From positions 1 through 37,033 of the forward strand of contig JANQFZ010000040.1 in assembly GCA_028277605.1 (NCBI GenBank): a DNA stretch of 37,033 nucleotides, read 5' to 3'. Each line of letters starts with the position of its first letter. Position 1 is the first letter of the stretch. Below are positions 23,444 through 32,434 of this stretch, one piece after another. The notes beneath the pieces were generated by a model, which worked only from the letters and a program-made list of their open reading frames with translations, was not told where the DNA came from and did not search any database. A program made the translations under genes and the position numbers. This DNA comes from Vallitaleaceae bacterium (lineage in GTDB: Bacteria; Bacillota; Clostridia; Lachnospirales; Vallitaleaceae).

Positions 23444-24016
23444 TTAAGCAACAGGAACCGTCCCCAGCGCTTTTCTAATAAGCTTATCATAGATTGTTAT
23501 TAAGTAGGGTTCATTTGAATAACTTGCTACTTGATGGATAGGTATCCATTTGAGATCATTGGTTTCTTTATGATTTATTTTTAGTTTTTCTTTTTCATCA
23601 GTCATTAAAATATAGGCTAAATTTAAGTGAAGATGGGTCGCCACATATTCTCCATTTTTTTCATGCCCCCATACAGGTAGAATATCGAGGGAGGCAATCT
23701 TGTCAAAGAGAGGTTGAATATGAGTAACTCCTGTTTCTTCTCTTGCTTCTTTTAAGGCAATATGTAGTAAATCGGTGTCACCATCTGCATGACCACCCGT
23801 CCAAGTCCATGTATCATAAATTTTATGATGTATCATCAATACCTTGTCTAAGTTGGTATTCATTATAAATCCTGAACTAGATATATGAGCAAAGACATTA
23901 TCTCTTAATAGTATGTTTTGAGGAAACTGTTCTATATAGTTAAGTATTACACTTTTCTCTTTTTCTTCTTGCTCGTTATCTGGTTGATATTCTAATATTT
24001 GCTGAATATACTTCAT
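23444..24016 (-). CDS. NUDIX hydrolase
   Basis: NUDIX-fold pyrophosphohydrolase of about 190 residues; substrate unknown. The Nudix box is GGHADGDTDLLHIAL followed by KEAREETG. Against GX5EX7REUXEE the first Glu is Thr and the Arg is Lys, while the metal-binding EE pair is kept. The frame opens at GTG 24025, but GGAGGTG lies just before the ATG at 24016, which I take as the start. The last eight residues (ALGTVPVA) are encoded by a REP-like repeat, and another copy lies just before the ribosome binding site, so the gene is bracketed by direct repeats. It follows proS closely and may share its T-box control. Confidence 0.85.
   Translation of the reverse strand: MKYIQQILEYQPDNEQEEKEKSVILNYIEQFPQNILLRDNVFAHISSSGFIMNTNLDKVLMIHHKIYDTWTWTGGHADGDTDLLHIALKEAREETGVTHIQPLFDKIASLDILPVWGHEKNGEYVATHLHLNLAYILMTDEKEKLKINHKETNDLKWIPIHQVASYSNEPYLITIYDKLIRKALGTVPVA
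23455..23472 (-). repeat. REP-like repeat, copy at NUDIX 3' end
   Basis: GAACCGTCCCCAGCGCTT (plus strand) matches the copy at 24067-24084 at 17 of 18 bases and in the same orientation. Read on the minus strand it is the GGGGACGGTTC type that I associate with REP elements of Y1-type (RAYT) transposases in Firmicutes. Here it is coding, giving the end of the NUDIX protein. Confidence 0.65.
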
Positions 24017-24037: not shown

Positions 24038-24084
24038 GGTTCTTTTTGCTTGAAAGCAAGCAAAAAGAACCGTCCCCAGTGCTT
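24038..24084 (-). repeat. REP-like hairpin between proS and NUDIX gene
   Basis: GGTTCTTTTTGCTTG (24038-24052) pairs perfectly with 24057-24071 over a four-base loop, and the adjoining GTCCCCAGTGCTT completes the REP-type unit. It runs into the proS stop codon and ends 21 bases before the NUDIX start. It could act as a transcript-processing hairpin or partial terminator. Confidence 0.7.
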
Positions 24085-25519
24085 AGTAAGCTTTTCCCCA
24101 ATAGACCATTTTTTTAGCTGGTTTGCCGCAGCAAACACAGGTATCGGATACGTGTTCCTGATCAAATGGTATGCAGCGAGAGGTTGCACCTGTTTTTTCT
24201 TTTATCGCTTCTTCACAGGCTGGGTCACCACACCACATCGCTTTGACAAAACCTGGATTTTCTTTTAATTGATTTTCCATTTCATCCATAGTAGTCGCTG
24301 TATACGTATGCTCATCTCTATGGTTTTTCGCTTTTTCTAATAGTTCTTGCTGCATGACCTGTAAAACTTGGTTTACCTTTACTTCCAGTTCATCTAATGA
24401 TACAAAGATTTTTTCTCTAGTATCTCTTCTGACAAGAACTGCTTGGTTTTTTTCTATGTCTTTGGGGCCTATTTCAACCCGTAATGGTACCCCTTTCATC
24501 TCATGCTCACTGAATTTCCAGCCTGGACTTTTATCAGAGTCGTCTAAGGTAACTCTTAGCGTTTGACTTAGTTTTTCTTTGAGTTCACCTGCTTTTTCTA
24601 AAACACCTGCTTTTCTTTGCATAATTGGTATAATAGCAATTTGAATAGGTGCTATTGCTGGTGGTAGAACAAGACCGGAATTATCACCATGAACCATAAT
24701 GATACCGCCAATAAGTCGTGTTGATACACCCCAAGAGCTTTGGTGCACATATTTTAGTTTGTTTTCCTTATCTGTATACTGAATACCAAAAGCTTTAGCA
24801 AATCCATCACCAAAATTGTGTGTTGTTCCTGATTGAAGACCTTTTCCATCATGCATTAAGCTTTCAATGGTATAGGTTGCTTTTGCTCCTGCAAACTTCT
24901 CTTTATCTGTTTTCTTTCCTTTAATCATTGGAATCGCTAGTACTTCTTCACAGAAATCTGCATAGAGGTTTAACATATTAATAGTTTCTTCCTCTGCTTC
25001 TTCTGCTGTTGCATGAGCTGTATGACCTTCTTGCCATAAAAACTCTAATGAACGAAGAAAAGGTCTGGTCGTTTTTTCCCATCTTACAACAGAACACCAT
25101 TGGTTATAGAGTTTTGGCAAGTCTCTATAAGACTGAATATCATGTGCATAATGCTCACAGAATAAGGTTTCTGAGGTTGGTCTGACACATAAACGTTCAT
25201 TTAGCTTCTCTTCTCCGCCATGGGTTACCCATGCGACTTCTGGTGCAAAACCTTCAATATGATCCTTTTCTTTTTCTAATAAGCTTTCTGGAATAAACAT
25301 AGGCATATAGACATTTTGATGTCCTGTTTCTTTAAACCTTTGGTCTAATTGTTTTTGTATTAACTCCCAGATAGCGTAACCGTATGGCTTGATGATCATA
25401 CATCCTCTGACACTAGAGTAATCAATTAATTCAGCTTTTTTTACGACATCTGTATACCACTGTGTAAAATCTTCTTCCATAGATGTTATAGCTTCAACTA
25501 ACTTTTTTTCTTTTCCCAT
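24083..25519 (-). CDS. proS: prolyl-tRNA synthetase (short, archaeal/eukaryotic-like type)
   Basis: Class II synthetase charging tRNA-Pro, 478 residues. It lacks the large editing insertion of the bacterial long form. Recognised from [33 protein letters not shown] (motif 2 region), [20 protein letters not shown] and the motif 3 segment [12 protein letters not shown]. The C-terminus has a four-Cys zinc-like cluster (CGDPACEE and later CVCCGKP) and ends in the YWGKAY typical of this type. GTG 25528 opens the frame, but it abuts AAAGGAG, so the ATG at 25519, eight bases past the site, is the better start. A T-box leader controls the gene. Confidence 0.95.
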
Positions 25520-25570
25520 AGATTTCACTCCTTTTATTATACGTTAACTAAATCATTTCATTTTCTGTAC

Positions 25571-25812
25571 AAAAAAACTCCTATCCCAAAAGGGACGGAG
25601 TATCCGTGGTACCACCCTAGTTAGCAGTTTACTCAAACTACTCTCTCTGACCTTTATAACGAAAAGGGAACCGCTGTATTTTTATACAGAACTCCGAGAT
25701 AGGTTCAATATGTATTTTATGGAAGTCTTACAGCCTAGGACTTCTTCTCTGCTATAAAATTGACATATCTACTTATTCTCATCATCATTACTTTCTAGTA
25801 TTCTTTTCTTAT
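25571..25812 (-). promoter_or_regulatory. T-box riboswitch leader of proS
   Basis: The conserved T-box sequence AGGGTGGTACCACGG is at 25604-25618 (minus strand). It is followed by a terminator stem (ACTCC-GTCCC against GGGAT-A-GGAGT, 25577-25601) and seven T. Upstream, GAACCTA places a proline codon CCT at 25701-25703 as the likely specifier, matching the downstream gene. Uncharged tRNA-Pro would stabilise the antiterminator. The boundaries are set by the promoter and the terminator. Confidence 0.92.
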
Positions 25813-27907: not shown

Positions 27908-29122
27908 TTATTTTTCTTTTTTAAATGGAATCAATTCAATTTTTCTAACTTGTTTTCTTTTATTTGCCCATCGTAAAATAAATATCTGCACAATACCTGC
28001 TAATGGTATGGATAAAATCATACCGAGCAGTCCAAAAAATTTACCAAAAACAAATATAGCAAGGAGAATAAATACTGGGTGCATACCAACACTCTTCCCT
28101 TGAATTCTTGGGCTTACAAAAATATAATAAATTTGTTGTACGATTACAATGTAGGCACCTATAAATACCGCATCCTGCCATCCATCTCTTCCCAAGGCTA
28201 TAATAACAGCAGGGACTATTCCAATCCAAGTACCGATATATGGTATGATATTAGTATAACCTGCAAAAGTTCCTACTATAAAGGAATAGTCAAAGCCAAT
28301 AACCACCAACGATATAACGGTAACAAAACTAAGCAGCGTTAGATCGATTATCTTTCCTCTTAAAAAACTTAATAAAACAGCATTAATTTTTTCCATAATT
28401 TCGTTAAAGGATGATCTTCTTTTTTCATTTAAGGTTAGTCGTAAGATATTTTCTACAAGATTATAAAAATACTCTCGATTTAAAATGAAGTTAAAGGCAA
28501 ATACAAATCCAAAAGTAATATCTATAAAATATCTACCAAAAGTTGCAATACTAGAAGTTATACCAGTTAGGACAGATTGGATGCTGTGCGTAATATCTTC
28601 TGTAAATTCTGTTAAAACATTAAGTATATTGGTTGGCAGTCCAAAATTCATCAAAATATCTTCAATGTTAGATATTTCTAAGGTATATTGCTTAGCTAAA
28701 GATGAAATACTATCAAAAAGCTTATTAAACTCAAAATCATTAACACTCCCGTTAATCATGATAAAGACACTATAACCTAAGAAAAATATGATGCCAATAA
28801 TAACAACTAATGTAAGTATAAGACTTATAATTCTTATTCTTTTTTGACGTCGCCGTTCTATAGCTCTAGACCATTTCTTACTTAATCTAATTCTGCCAAA
28901 TATTCTTTCAAAATACTTCACTATAGGCATTAATAAATAAGCAATGACTATCCCCCATAAAAATGGTGAAAAAACCTTGACAACAAAAGAAAAAGCTGAT
29001 TTTACATTATCTACAGCAACGACAAAATTATCTAGCAAAAGATAAATTAAATAAATAATAACAAACCCTAGTGTTATATATTTAATTTTTTTCATGTAGC
29101 CATGATCCAGCTTTAACTTCAT
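27908..29122 (-). CDS. AI-2E family transporter
   Basis: Membrane protein of 404 residues in the AI-2E (PerM/YdiK/TqsA) family. Eight or so transmembrane helices are visible, with the family-typical YTNIIPYIGTWIGIVPAVII segment near 280 and SVGMHPVFILLAIFVFGKFFG near 340. Between is a long, partly amphipathic region (about 120-200). Members export small molecules or ions; named substrates (autoinducer-2, Na+/H+) vary, so no substrate is assigned. It follows the response regulator by 91 bases and precedes the HAD-like gene by 22. AAGGAG lies nine bases before the ATG. Confidence 0.9.
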   Translation of the reverse strand: MKLKLDHGYMKKIKYITLGFVIIYLIYLLLDNFVVAVDNVKSAFSFVVKVFSPFLWGIVIAYLLMPIVKYFERIFGRIRLSKKWSRAIERRRQKRIRIISLILTLVVIIGIIFFLGYSVFIMINGSVNDFEFNKLFDSISSLAKQYTLEISNIEDILMNFGLPTNILNVLTEFTEDITHSIQSVLTGITSSIATFGRYFIDITFGFVFAFNFILNREYFYNLVENILRLTLNEKRRSSFNEIMEKINAVLLSFLRGKIIDLTLLSFVTVISLVVIGFDYSFIVGTFAGYTNIIPYIGTWIGIVPAVIIALGRDGWQDAVFIGAYIVIVQQIYYIFVSPRIQGKSVGMHPVFILLAIFVFGKFFGLLGMILSIPLAGIVQIFILRWANKRKQVRKIELIPFKKEK

Positions 29123-30172: not shown

Positions 30173-32095
30173 TTAAGATTTATTTGCATCCATTTCTTTT
30201 TGTAAGGCTTCCCAAATTGCAAGTGCTTTTTCTAACTTTGACTGATTTAGATTGACTTGATTGGACAGTTCATGAAGTCTGTGAGCATCTGTAGTATGTG
30301 TTAACATTTCATTTTTCAAATTTTTTATTTCATTTTCTAACACATCAATTTCTTTTTCACATGCTTCTACCTGATAATAATAAGATTGCAGCTTTTTGGG
30401 CTTTTCTTTACTGCTCTTCTTTAGGTTTTTCTTACTCATTTTTGGTTCTTTCTTCTTAATAACTGAGGAATTAATAGTTTTGCTTTTTTCATTTTTAAAA
30501 TATTCATAATCCCCCTTATAAATTATAAGGTTTTTATCTTCGATTTCAATTATTTTAGAAGCTATTTTATTGATAAAATACCGATCATGAGAAACGAAAA
30601 CTATGGTTCCTTTGTAATCTAATAAAGTTTCTTCTAATATTTCTCTTGAATCAATATCTAAATGATTGGTTGGCTCATCAAGTATTAGGACATTTACTTT
30701 TTCATATAGAAGCATGCACAGTTTAAGCCGACTTTTTTCTCCGCCAGATAATACCTTAATTTTTTTAAAACTATCATCCCCTACAAAAAGGACTTTTGCT
30801 AGAGCCTTTCTAGCCTCTCCTATGTTAATTGAATAGGTTTTAGAAAACAGTTCTAAGATAGATACTTCCTCATTATCAAAAACTATTTCTTGAGGGAGAT
30901 AGCCTATTTTCACACGACTTCCTAACTTTACTGTACCATTATCAGGCTGTATCTCATTCATTATAATTTTTAAAAGTGTCGTCTTACCAGCACCATTAGC
31001 CCCTAGAATTCCAGCACAATCTTGAAAATAGAGCTTTAGATCAACATTGAGTAATAATTCTAAGTTTGGATAACTATGACTGATTCCCTCTAAAATAATG
31101 ACTTCATTACCAGAGCGTTCTGAGGAAGTAGACATTTTAATCTTAGGTTTTTCTAATACGGGTTTTTCATTACGACTCATTTTAGATAACCTTTTTTCTA
31201 GTTCCTTTGCTCTTTTGAACATCTTTTCACTGTCTCTCATGGTTCCCCATATCCTGAATCGTTTAATCTGCTCTTCCATTCTTTTAATCTTTTTTTGCTG
31301 AGCTTTATAATGCTTCATAGCTTCTAAGAATCTTCTCTCTTTTTCAACCAAATAATAGCTATAATTACCATAATAAGTCTCAACACCATCCTCATCGAGT
31401 TCAATTAACTTCGTAATCACACGATCTAAAAAATATCGATCATGGGATATAATTATCACTGCACCTTTATACTCCTTTAAATAAGCTTCGAGCCATTCTA
31501 TAGATGCTAAATCTAGATGGTTAGATGGTTCATCGAGAAGCAAAATATCAGGCTGTTCAAGCAATATTTTACCTAGTAATATTTTTGACTTTTGACCTCC
31601 ACTCAGTTGGTTGAATAACTTAGCTTTCATGTTCTCAGGAATGTTAATACCTTCCGTTATTTTACTGATTTTTTGTTCTATATCATAACCGCCCAGCCTT
31701 TCAAACTCTTGTTGGAGTTTCCCATAGGCTTTCATAAGACGATCTAAGTCTTCAGATGAGGTTCCAGATTTCTCTAGTTTGATCTCAATCTCTATCATTC
31801 GTTCTTTAATTTCTTTTATTTTGTCAAAAGCTGACATTAAAACATCCATAACTGTTGTTTCATCTTTAAAAACTGGCAATTGGGCTAAGTAGCCAATAAT
31901 AGCTTCTTTTCTTTTATAGATTTCTCCTTGATACGTTTCTGTTCCCATTAATATTTTCATTAGGGTTGTTTTACCCGTTCCGTTTCTTCCTATTAGACCA
32001 ATGCGTTCATTGGTTTTTAAGTCAAATGTAACGTTTTGAAATAGCTTATGAGCCCCATAATACTTTACTAAATTTTTAACACCTAATTCTATCAT
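30173..32095 (-). CDS. ABC-F translation factor (Uup/YdiF type)
   Basis: Cytosolic ABC-F ATPase of 640 residues, without membrane domains. ABC domain 1 has Walker A GRNGTGKTT (about 37), signature LSGGQKSK and Walker B LLLDEPSNHLD. A charged linker (about 240-320; RFLEAMKHYKAQQKKIKRM) is the ribosome-contacting P-site motif region. ABC domain 2 has GANGAGKTT, LSGGEKSRL and LILDEPTNHLD. A C-terminal coiled coil (about 560-635) resembles Uup and YdiF. Such proteins bind the ribosomal E site and rescue stalled or antibiotic-bound ribosomes. The leader contains an upstream ORF and a terminator, so expression probably senses translation. GGAGGACACGCTA precedes the ATG. Confidence 0.93.
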   Translation of the reverse strand: MIELGVKNLVKYYGAHKLFQNVTFDLKTNERIGLIGRNGTGKTTLMKILMGTETYQGEIYKRKEAIIGYLAQLPVFKDETTVMDVLMSAFDKIKEIKERMIEIEIKLEKSGTSSEDLDRLMKAYGKLQQEFERLGGYDIEQKISKITEGINIPENMKAKLFNQLSGGQKSKILLGKILLEQPDILLLDEPSNHLDLASIEWLEAYLKEYKGAVIIISHDRYFLDRVITKLIELDEDGVETYYGNYSYYLVEKERRFLEAMKHYKAQQKKIKRMEEQIKRFRIWGTMRDSEKMFKRAKELEKRLSKMSRNEKPVLEKPKIKMSTSSERSGNEVIILEGISHSYPNLELLLNVDLKLYFQDCAGILGANGAGKTTLLKIIMNEIQPDNGTVKLGSRVKIGYLPQEIVFDNEEVSILELFSKTYSINIGEARKALAKVLFVGDDSFKKIKVLSGGEKSRLKLCMLLYEKVNVLILDEPTNHLDIDSREILEETLLDYKGTIVFVSHDRYFINKIASKIIEIEDKNLIIYKGDYEYFKNEKSKTINSSVIKKKEPKMSKKNLKKSSKEKPKKLQSYYYQVEACEKEIDVLENEIKNLKNEMLTHTTDAHRLHELSNQVNLNQSKLEKALAIWEALQKEMDANKS

Positions 32096-32158
32096 TAGCG
32101 TGTCCTCCTAACTTGGTAGTTTTGAAATTAGATAAGGGTATACTGTGTTTTTGCGCAC

Positions 32159-32186
32159 AAAAAAACCTAGACCATATTAGCCTAGG
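32159..32186 (-). terminator. leader terminator (attenuator) before ABC-F gene
   Basis: On the minus strand CCTAG pairs with CTAGG around an 11-base loop, with AAAA before and seven T after that extend the stem past one mismatch. It lies between the upstream ORF and the ABC-F ATG, so it would stop transcription before the gene unless prevented. The loop base run CTAATAT is complementary to ATATTAG inside the last codons of the upstream ORF (32251-32257). Confidence 0.65.
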
Positions 32187-32231
32187 ATTTTACAACCATC
32201 TTTAATAATTAAATGGTATTTATATGCTTCT

Positions 32232-32369
32232 TTAAGTTATCCTTATATGCCTAATATTGTACAACTCAAACACTGGTGCTTTATTAAATTTGGACAGATC
32301 TCTCCCGTAGGTATAAGAAATTGCTGTTATATTTCTTTTGAAATCGATCCACATTTGAGTTGCGTTCAT
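32232..32369 (-). CDS. 45-residue upstream ORF in ABC-F leader
   Basis: A complete small ORF from ATG (32367-32369) to TAA, with AGGTG six bases before the ATG. The peptide starts MNATQMWIDFKRNITAISYT and ends NIRHIRIT. It is not a family I can name with confidence. Context suggests a leader peptide whose translation governs the terminator 46 bases further on, as in known ribosome-mediated attenuation of ABC-F resistance genes. At 45 codons it is longer than typical leader peptides, so a small functional protein or a remnant of a longer gene is an alternative. Confidence 0.55.
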   Translation of the reverse strand: MNATQMWIDFKRNITAISYTYGRDLSKFNKAPVFELYNIRHIRIT

Positions 32370-32404
32370 TTTCTTCACCTTTCAAAACCTTTTTTTATAC
32401 AATA

Positions 32405-32434
32405 ATAGTAACAAAAATAGACGTTACTTGTCAA
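32405..32434 (-). promoter_or_regulatory. promoter of ABC-F leader
   Basis: On the minus strand TTGACA (32429-32434) and TACTAT (32405-32410) have an 18-base spacer. Expected start near 32398 gives a leader of about 300 bases before the ABC-F gene, with the upstream ORF about 29 bases in. Confidence 0.65.

Follow-up and report, generated by a model that had tools for sequence, protein, structure and literature searches.

What governs expression of the ABC-F gene on the minus strand of a 37,033-nucleotide (nt) contig of a Vallitaleaceae bacterium (JANQFZ010000040.1; this whole stretch is called the window)? The gene (30173..32095, 640 aa, ATG at 32095) is preceded by a leader of about 300 bases. 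An earlier note, made from the letters alone, had placed a promoter-like site, an upstream open reading frame (uORF) with its own Shine-Dalgarno (SD) sequence and a terminator with seven T in this order before the ATG, and had read them as an attenuator. All of these were found on the minus strand, to which every feature below belongs. The attenuation reading was supported: the leader quite probably carries an RNA element common to macrolide-resistance leaders of Bacilli, and is predicted to be a ribosome-controlled transcription attenuator for the ABC-F gene. The element consists of a conserved motif, here inside the uORF, and two predicted pairings, P1 and P2; these and the wider leader family are additions to the earlier reading.

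The uORF (32232..32369) has counterparts in relatives. It encodes the 45-codon peptide MNATQMWIDFKRNITAISYTYGRDLSKFNKAPVFELYNIRHIRIT, and an SD-like AAAGGTG (32376..32382) lies six nt before its ATG. An in-frame GTG at 32378 would add three codons. The note had already called the uORF longer than usual, and the attenuators known before ABC-F genes have uORFs of 3–9 codons. Across 48 leaders of this kind (29 before ABC-F genes and 19 before MFS genes), uORF length was 30–57 codons; SD-like stretches were also present upstream of the relatives' uORFs (weak in L196). A homologue search with the uORF peptide found none. Amino-acid starvation sensing was considered; by reading, the uORF has no run of one codon. 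The motif of the window, TACGGGAGAGATCTGTCC (32292..32309), was defined by comparison and by the models described below, and it is also the putative 3′ strand of P2. The intrinsic terminator (32159..32189) was found by terminator search and in relatives; it comprises an AATCC extension, a 9-pair stem-loop (32186–32166) and T7 (32165–32159). One terminator was found in the window leader, versus 0.2 expected in shuffles.

The earlier note had proposed looking for the ORF and the terminator in relatives, and both were conserved upstream of ABC-F orthologs. In the source genome's own family, which includes Vallitalea, 12 of 22 genomes had an ABC-F match at E ≤ 1e-140, and the leader was present in 11 of these 12; the ortholog without it is in G003. 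Of 391 genomes sampled from the class, 29 contained an ortholog (E ≤ 1e-145), 12 of them with the leader (second ABC-F copies in G340 and G408 are excluded from this count). The nearest ortholog found (L066, 64 % identity, from another family) keeps the uORF, motif, P1, terminator and both halves of the possible antiterminator. The terminator was present in 26 of the 27 first ABC-F leaders (L014 was ambiguous). Several leaders (L010, L011, L069, L101–L104) have two consecutive terminators after the uORF, and in L101–L104 a CCCGGGT segment recurs directly upstream of the gene; L101, L104, L102 and L103 are longer stretches of the same places as L075, L091, L096 and L097. Third codon positions held 116 of 262 differences (44 %, p 2e-4 against one third) in 16 related leader pairs, which are not independent. 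This excess fits translation of the uORF with weak constraint on the peptide.

The motif, a block with the consensus ACGGGAGNAGTCTGTCC, ended at uORF nt 78–108 in the 27 ABC-F leaders, with one T and one C invariant in all 27. In nine of the 48 leaders (L010, L068, L012–L014, L146, L182, L196 and L201), the motif was off-frame. Since it recurs in other reading frames, it appears to be conserved as RNA or DNA. The pattern ACGGGAGNARTSYGTCC had exactly one occurrence in the 391 genomes, upstream of the ABC-F ortholog L082, and the reversed control had none; the window motif itself deviates from this pattern.

Two models were used to find further leaders. R2 models the motif region by sequence alone, and 25 of the 27 first ABC-F leaders went into its training. 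R3 was trained on 34 of 38 leaders, with near-duplicates left out and none from macrolide genes. Over the 391 genomes, R2 gave 24 loci at E ≤ 6.6e-4, and 22 of them were upstream of an ABC-F gene or an MFS_1 transporter gene. Ten of these loci were outside the training set (2 ABC-F and 8 MFS). The E-values of a sequence-only model are optimistic: at E ≤ 0.05, R2 matched 125 of the 391 genomes, versus about 20 expected. Below the best 24, the matches read were those met via the MFS search plus G236:C169 and G119:C104. R3 at E ≤ 0.001 gave 23 matches in 17 of the 22 genomes of family f40: 11 before ABC-F genes, 11 before MFS genes and one degenerate.

The MFS protein (PF07690, no NCBIfam cut-off reached) is a transporter unrelated to ABC-F. 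Its orthologs (E ≤ 1e-50) were found in 17 of the 391 genomes, and all 17 had a leader of this kind. Twelve of these leaders were supported by a model (G408 weakly, E 0.042) and five by reading only (G373, G111, G394, G163 and G272), with no R3 match at E ≤ 0.5. In G134, the uORF and motif were about 440 nt upstream of the MFS gene, and the relative G021 holds both an ABC-F and an MFS copy. Judged by sequence, ABC-F and MFS genes alike are preceded by the full set of uORF, motif, P1 complementarity and terminator.

Some model matches were not counted as leaders (L105 in G015, L148, L149, L184, L185, L208 and L219), and others were ambiguous (L147/L124, L166, L210 and L212). The two R2 loci outside ABC-F and MFS contexts were L149, apparently inside a coding sequence, and L147, between a glmS ribozyme and glmS. 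The latter (L147/L124, G402:C1:2753431, R2 E 5.6e-4) has a small ORF ending at the motif, and may be chance or a relic. L166 (G060:C112, match 23700–23735) is a degenerate leader with a terminator and has neither an ABC-F nor an MFS gene directly downstream. L015 (G040) was dropped from the leader set as ambiguous; R3 gives no match there.

The link to macrolide resistance came from R3. Over 239 phylum genomes, it gave 12 loci at E ≤ 0.001 outside the window's own genome: five directly before ABC-F genes, one with the ABC-F start more than 700 nt further, one before a Mef-like MFS gene, one before a TGS GTPase gene and four in other contexts. Two of the loci have the uORFs MGFCRLRFPTLNIK and MTHSMRLRFPTLNC, with the motif after the uORF stop. 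The gene behind MGFCRLRFPTLNIK had Msr as its best family (642 bits against a cut-off of 680, for a piece cut by the locus end) and passed only NF000355; the gene behind MTHSMRLRFPTLNC had Mef(A) (298 bits against 675). The DNA of these two leaders matched 25 and 23 plasmid records, respectively. Eight of the plasmid-matching records were examined for leader and gene. In one, a putative RNA methyltransferase gene came ahead of an msr(I)-like gene; two had mef(F)-msr(G) and one an msr(G)-like gene. Of the remaining four, one had mphN, two had a macrolide 2′-phosphotransferase gene each, and one had an ErmD gene from Bacillus licheniformis whose uORF is MTHSMRLRFPTLNQ. R3 matched all eight records (E ≤ 0.0018) and all ten macrolide loci overall (E 5.6e-8 to 0.0018); the window scores E 1.1e-7, but it belongs to the training set. 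In nine of the ten macrolide leaders (L223 was not scored), the stretch directly after the motif could pair with the SD/start region; the energies, calculated without a swap control, were −12.1 to −17.5 kcal/mol. The R-L-R codons of these leaders can pair with the motif. The motif and the predicted P1 recur in erm(D), mef(F)-msr(G), msr and macrolide phosphotransferase leaders.

ErmD-type leaders are known attenuators that act through uORF translation (PMC8298421, PMC4335068). In the presence of erythromycin or telithromycin, ErmDL stalls around Arg6-Leu7-Arg8, and induction of ermD is described (PMC8298421). Related leader peptides have been listed, and the authors noted no homology of the mef(E) region to that of erm(K) beyond the peptide (PMC4335068). 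Given the company of efflux, erm, msr, mef and mph genes, a ribosome-targeting drug is the likely signal for the window leader. The window peptide lacks [RK]x[RK], which makes macrolides no more than a lead.

P1 joins the start of the uORF to the sequence behind the motif, with letters that differ by group. In the window, strand 1 (32352..32363, uORF codons 3–6) and strand 2 (32261..32272) are GCAACUCAAAUG and UGUUUGAGUUGU; the corresponding strands are CAACUGAUUUAU/AUAAGUUAGUUG in L003 and UUUUAGUUAAC/GUUAACUAAA in L069, and P1 of L198 reaches 21 pairs with one bulge. MAFFT alignments misplaced P1 either for L007/L008 or for the window, and RNAalifold gave little on them. P1 was therefore tested free of alignment, by comparing true partners with partners swapped between groups in 27 leaders. 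For the window, in whose folds P1 was seen, 0 of 50 swaps were as good. The mean z-values for groups A to J were −2.8, −3.8, −2.8, −3.2, −1.4, −0.1, −2.0, −2.9, −1.8 and −3.3; in group F (−0.1), the stretch tested misses most of P1. We also re-paired strands at random among one leader from each of the 8 clusters of the 48 leaders. The true sum was −158.3 kcal/mol versus a random mean of −101.2 (standard deviation: 11.4), and was reached in 1 of 20000 re-pairings. With the six MFS representatives, 33 of 20000 were as good, and with the five ABC-F representatives 185 of 20000, near the rate at which the true pairing itself is drawn.

P2 would pair early uORF codons (UGGAU-C-GAUUUC in the window, 32340..32351) with the motif. 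It was seen in folds, and UGGAU could pair with GUCCA or GUCUA in all eight sequences of groups A–C, with no two-sided changes. It has no swap support: the motif is alike in all leaders, which makes the swap test uninformative.

How these parts could work together can be proposed as follows. We infer that a ribosome halted at early codons of the uORF would switch the attenuation; termination, translation and induction are all predicted. With free ribosomes, the uORF would be translated to its end, and the sequence behind the motif would be covered or paired in P1. With this sequence occupied, the terminator would form and transcription would stop. A drug that holds the ribosome on the first uORF codons would mask P1 strand 1. 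The sequence behind the motif, or in some groups the motif itself, could then pair with the 5′ arm of the terminator. Capture of this arm would let RNA polymerase read into the ABC-F gene. In the window, the off-state would come from ribosomes at the last uORF codons (34 to stop), which would mask the antiterminator strand.

The possible antiterminator strand of the window is ATATTAG-GCATATA-AGGAT (32239..32257), adjoining P1 without overlap. The earlier note had pointed to ATATTAG (32257–32251) as complementary to CTAATAT (32180–32174) in the terminator loop. The complementarity is there, but CTAATAT spans the end of the 5′ arm as well as the loop, and the pair is half of a longer possible antiterminator that includes AGGAT with ATCCT. 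The pairing is kept in L066, but the antiterminator of the window's group was no better than swaps (mean z −0.2). The general test paired the stretch from the motif region to the terminator start with the terminator 5′ arm in 26 of the 27 leaders (L014 left out). Mean z was below −1 in six of the ten groups (B, C, E, F, G and I). In group F, as in several macrolide leaders, the terminator arm has a possible partner in the motif itself.

Ribosome position was modelled by masking 31 nt around the P site and folding the RNA to the terminator loop, in 38 of the 48 leaders (10 were left out). The antiterminator share, meaning the part of the 5′ arm engaged in such pairs, was 0.39 with no ribosome, 0.54 with the ribosome at codons 1–8 and 0.41 at codons 17–26. 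Early masking raised the share in 29 leaders, lowered it in four and left it unchanged in five; the gain was weaker in MFS leaders. For the window, the share was 0.39–0.57 at codons 24–27 and 0.26–0.50 from codon 34 to stop. The mask model thus predicts that full translation would turn the window leader off and an upstream stall would turn it on, with the untranslated state left on.

Several results weigh against the proposed attenuator. The leader was missing in 17 of the 29 class genomes with an ortholog (1500 nt flanks, no R3 match): 14 from family f26, and G336, G373 and G408. By reading, the window peptide lacks the R-L-R or [RK]x[RK] arrest motif of the macrolide leaders. Swap support for the antiterminator was absent in groups A, D, H and J, and in the window the duplex with the terminator arm (−10.1 kcal/mol) was not better than swaps (6 of 24 were as good). 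In the mask model, an early ribosome brought the window no gain (0.67 versus 0.70 without), and L066 formed little antiterminator (0.24). The favoured reading is at its weakest in the antiterminator pairing of the window. Moreover, the general family NF000355, which the ABC-F protein passes with 471 bits (cut-off 380), does not separate resistance ABC-Fs from paralogs; two paralogs of the same genome score 464 and 439 bits.

Other explanations have to be set against this. That the parts met by chance, the ORF being unused and the terminator an ordinary one in AT-rich DNA, is hardly credible. The single-sequence fold, which the earlier note had proposed to calculate, is unremarkable: the minimum free energy (MFE) fold of the window leader beat its shuffles only by a small margin (z −1.63; 6 of 100 shuffles reached it). 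The statement that there is more than chance therefore rests on the comparison with relatives, and the recurrence before two unrelated gene types and macrolide-resistance genes, together with the P1 test, speaks for it. A ligand-binding riboswitch, with P1, P2 and the motif binding a small molecule directly and no translation involved, would fit a motif whose conservation exceeds pairing and is independent of frame. It is nonetheless very improbable, as the uORF and its SD are kept throughout, no Rfam family matches, and the macrolide relatives act via uORF translation (PMC8298421, PMC4335068).

Two further explanations concern what the motif is for, and each is unlikely, the second somewhat more so. 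Stalling could depend, as with classic arrest peptides, on the growing peptide well into the uORF (the I-T-A and YGRxLSK stretches), with the motif conserved mainly for its coding. The motif is in frame 0 in 39 of the 48 leaders, I-[TV]-[AHG] and G[RG]x[LVA]S recur in peptides from distant groups, and the 116 of 262 third-position differences point the same way. However, nine of the 48 leaders have the motif in another frame, the macrolide leaders have it after the uORF stop, and the peptide has no homologue. The motif could also be mainly a pause site for RNA polymerase that keeps ribosome and polymerase in step. It resembles the elemental pause consensus in having a T (27 of 27), a pyrimidine (27 of 27) and a G (24 of 27) at spaced positions. 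Pausing does matter in the vmlR leader (PMC9226507). Yet groups B and C lack the upstream G pair that belongs to the pause consensus, and the P2 pairing would account for part of the motif conservation.

Among known systems, the window leader is best read as a putative long-uORF variant of the erm(D)-type attenuator. With erm(D)/erm(K)-type attenuators it shares the motif ACGGGA..AGTCTGTCC, a uORF with SD, downstream terminators and a start region predicted to pair behind the motif; in folds, early codons of both may also pair with the motif. Their uORF is short, at about 14 codons including R-L-R (or K-L-R), and stops ahead of the motif, whereas the window has a 45-codon uORF that encodes another peptide and runs through the motif. 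The attenuators of vmlR, vmlR2, cplR, lsa(A) and ARE5 share the order of uORF, anti-antiterminator, antiterminator and terminator before an ABC-F gene, but their uORFs have 3–9 codons (PMC9226507, PMC10201436, PMC12421871). For these five, the available parts of the sources hold no mention of a motif of the present kind. In vmlR and cplR, the SD of the gene is also hidden in a hairpin; in one MFE fold of the window leader, the AGGAGG of the gene was unpaired. In streptococci, mef(E)/mel and msrD, which encode a Mef pump and an Msr ABC-F, are likewise under transcription attenuation through leader peptides, MTASMRLR and MYLIFM (PMC4335068, PMC10314930); they are likened by description, not by DNA. 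In the parts of the literature available, no report was found of the motif, its spread over gene types or the 30–57-codon form; the 1991–1992 ermK/ermD papers may describe parts of the macrolide fold.

The R3 locus before a GTPase gene (L209, G460:C32, match 28165–28191) has the uORF MLTKGTDTTCFVMMHKRVGFKLSTKGVVCPILTPRGLS and the motif in front of a protein with MMR_HSR1 and TGS domains. This is perhaps a third type of ribosome-acting gene under the element. The HflXr and VgaL ribo-regulators of Listeria reportedly attenuate a ribosome-acting GTPase gene and an ABC-F gene; they are likened to L209 by gene type.

One recognisable element unites the macrolide attenuators of Bacilli with unannotated leaders before ABC-F and MFS genes in Clostridia. 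The motif is a sequence handle for spotting inducible resistance genes in unannotated genomes, and the ABC-F gene of the window and the MFS family are predicted to respond to ribosome-stalling drugs. More tentatively, we may be looking at an ancient portable RNA switch, with the ACGGGAGNAGTCTGTCC motif between P1 and P2, that senses a stalled ribosome whatever the peptide and has been taken up by six gene types or more (ABC-F, two kinds of MFS pump, macrolide phosphotransferase, rRNA methyltransferases and TGS GTPase). The long-uORF form of Clostridia would then be a broad stalling sensor. If so, the reading frame would be only the probe and the RNA the device. It also becomes testable if more drug classes are sensed through a long uORF than through the short macrolide leaders.

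The promoter-like site, TTGACA-18 nt-TACTAT with TG ahead of the second hexamer (32405..32434; hexamers 32434–32429 and 32410–32405), has 10 of 12 matches. Alone it is weak evidence, as the shuffled region yields 2.8 such sites per stretch. Across the 48 leaders, sites with at least 10 of 12 matches 20–110 nt upstream of the uORF were found in 21, versus 2.1 expected from block shuffles.

The ABC-F protein has PF00005 twice and PF12848. It reached none of the cut-offs of the named antibiotic-resistance ABC-F (ARE) families (Vga 336 of 725 bits, OptrA 329 of 1450, and others), only that of the general NF000355. A tblastn search against plasmids (E ≤ 1e-120) gave one record with 43 % identity. 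Searches with blastn of the window leader against phages and of the L139 leader against plasmids gave no match.

The ABC-F orthologs of family f26 (L076–L081, L083, L085–L088, L090, L092 and L093) have no leader, and the MFS orthologs of this family, where found (L198–L200 and L202), have one by reading. The second ABC-F copy of G248 (L094) has no leader either.

Next to the SD of the uORF, GTTTTGAAA (32388–32380) is perfectly complementary over nine bases to TTTCAAAAC (32127–32119), which is shortly upstream of the SD of the ABC-F gene. The two pair in the MFE fold; by reading, this complementarity was not seen in L066. The leader was unmatched in an Rfam scan of the window at gathering scores, and likewise in the scan of 17 + 11 relatives' loci, which gave just one tRNA and one glmS element. 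The sole match in the window was a T-box leader elsewhere (RF00230, 122.7 bits, 25588–25794), upstream of a prolyl-tRNA synthetase gene (24083–25528).

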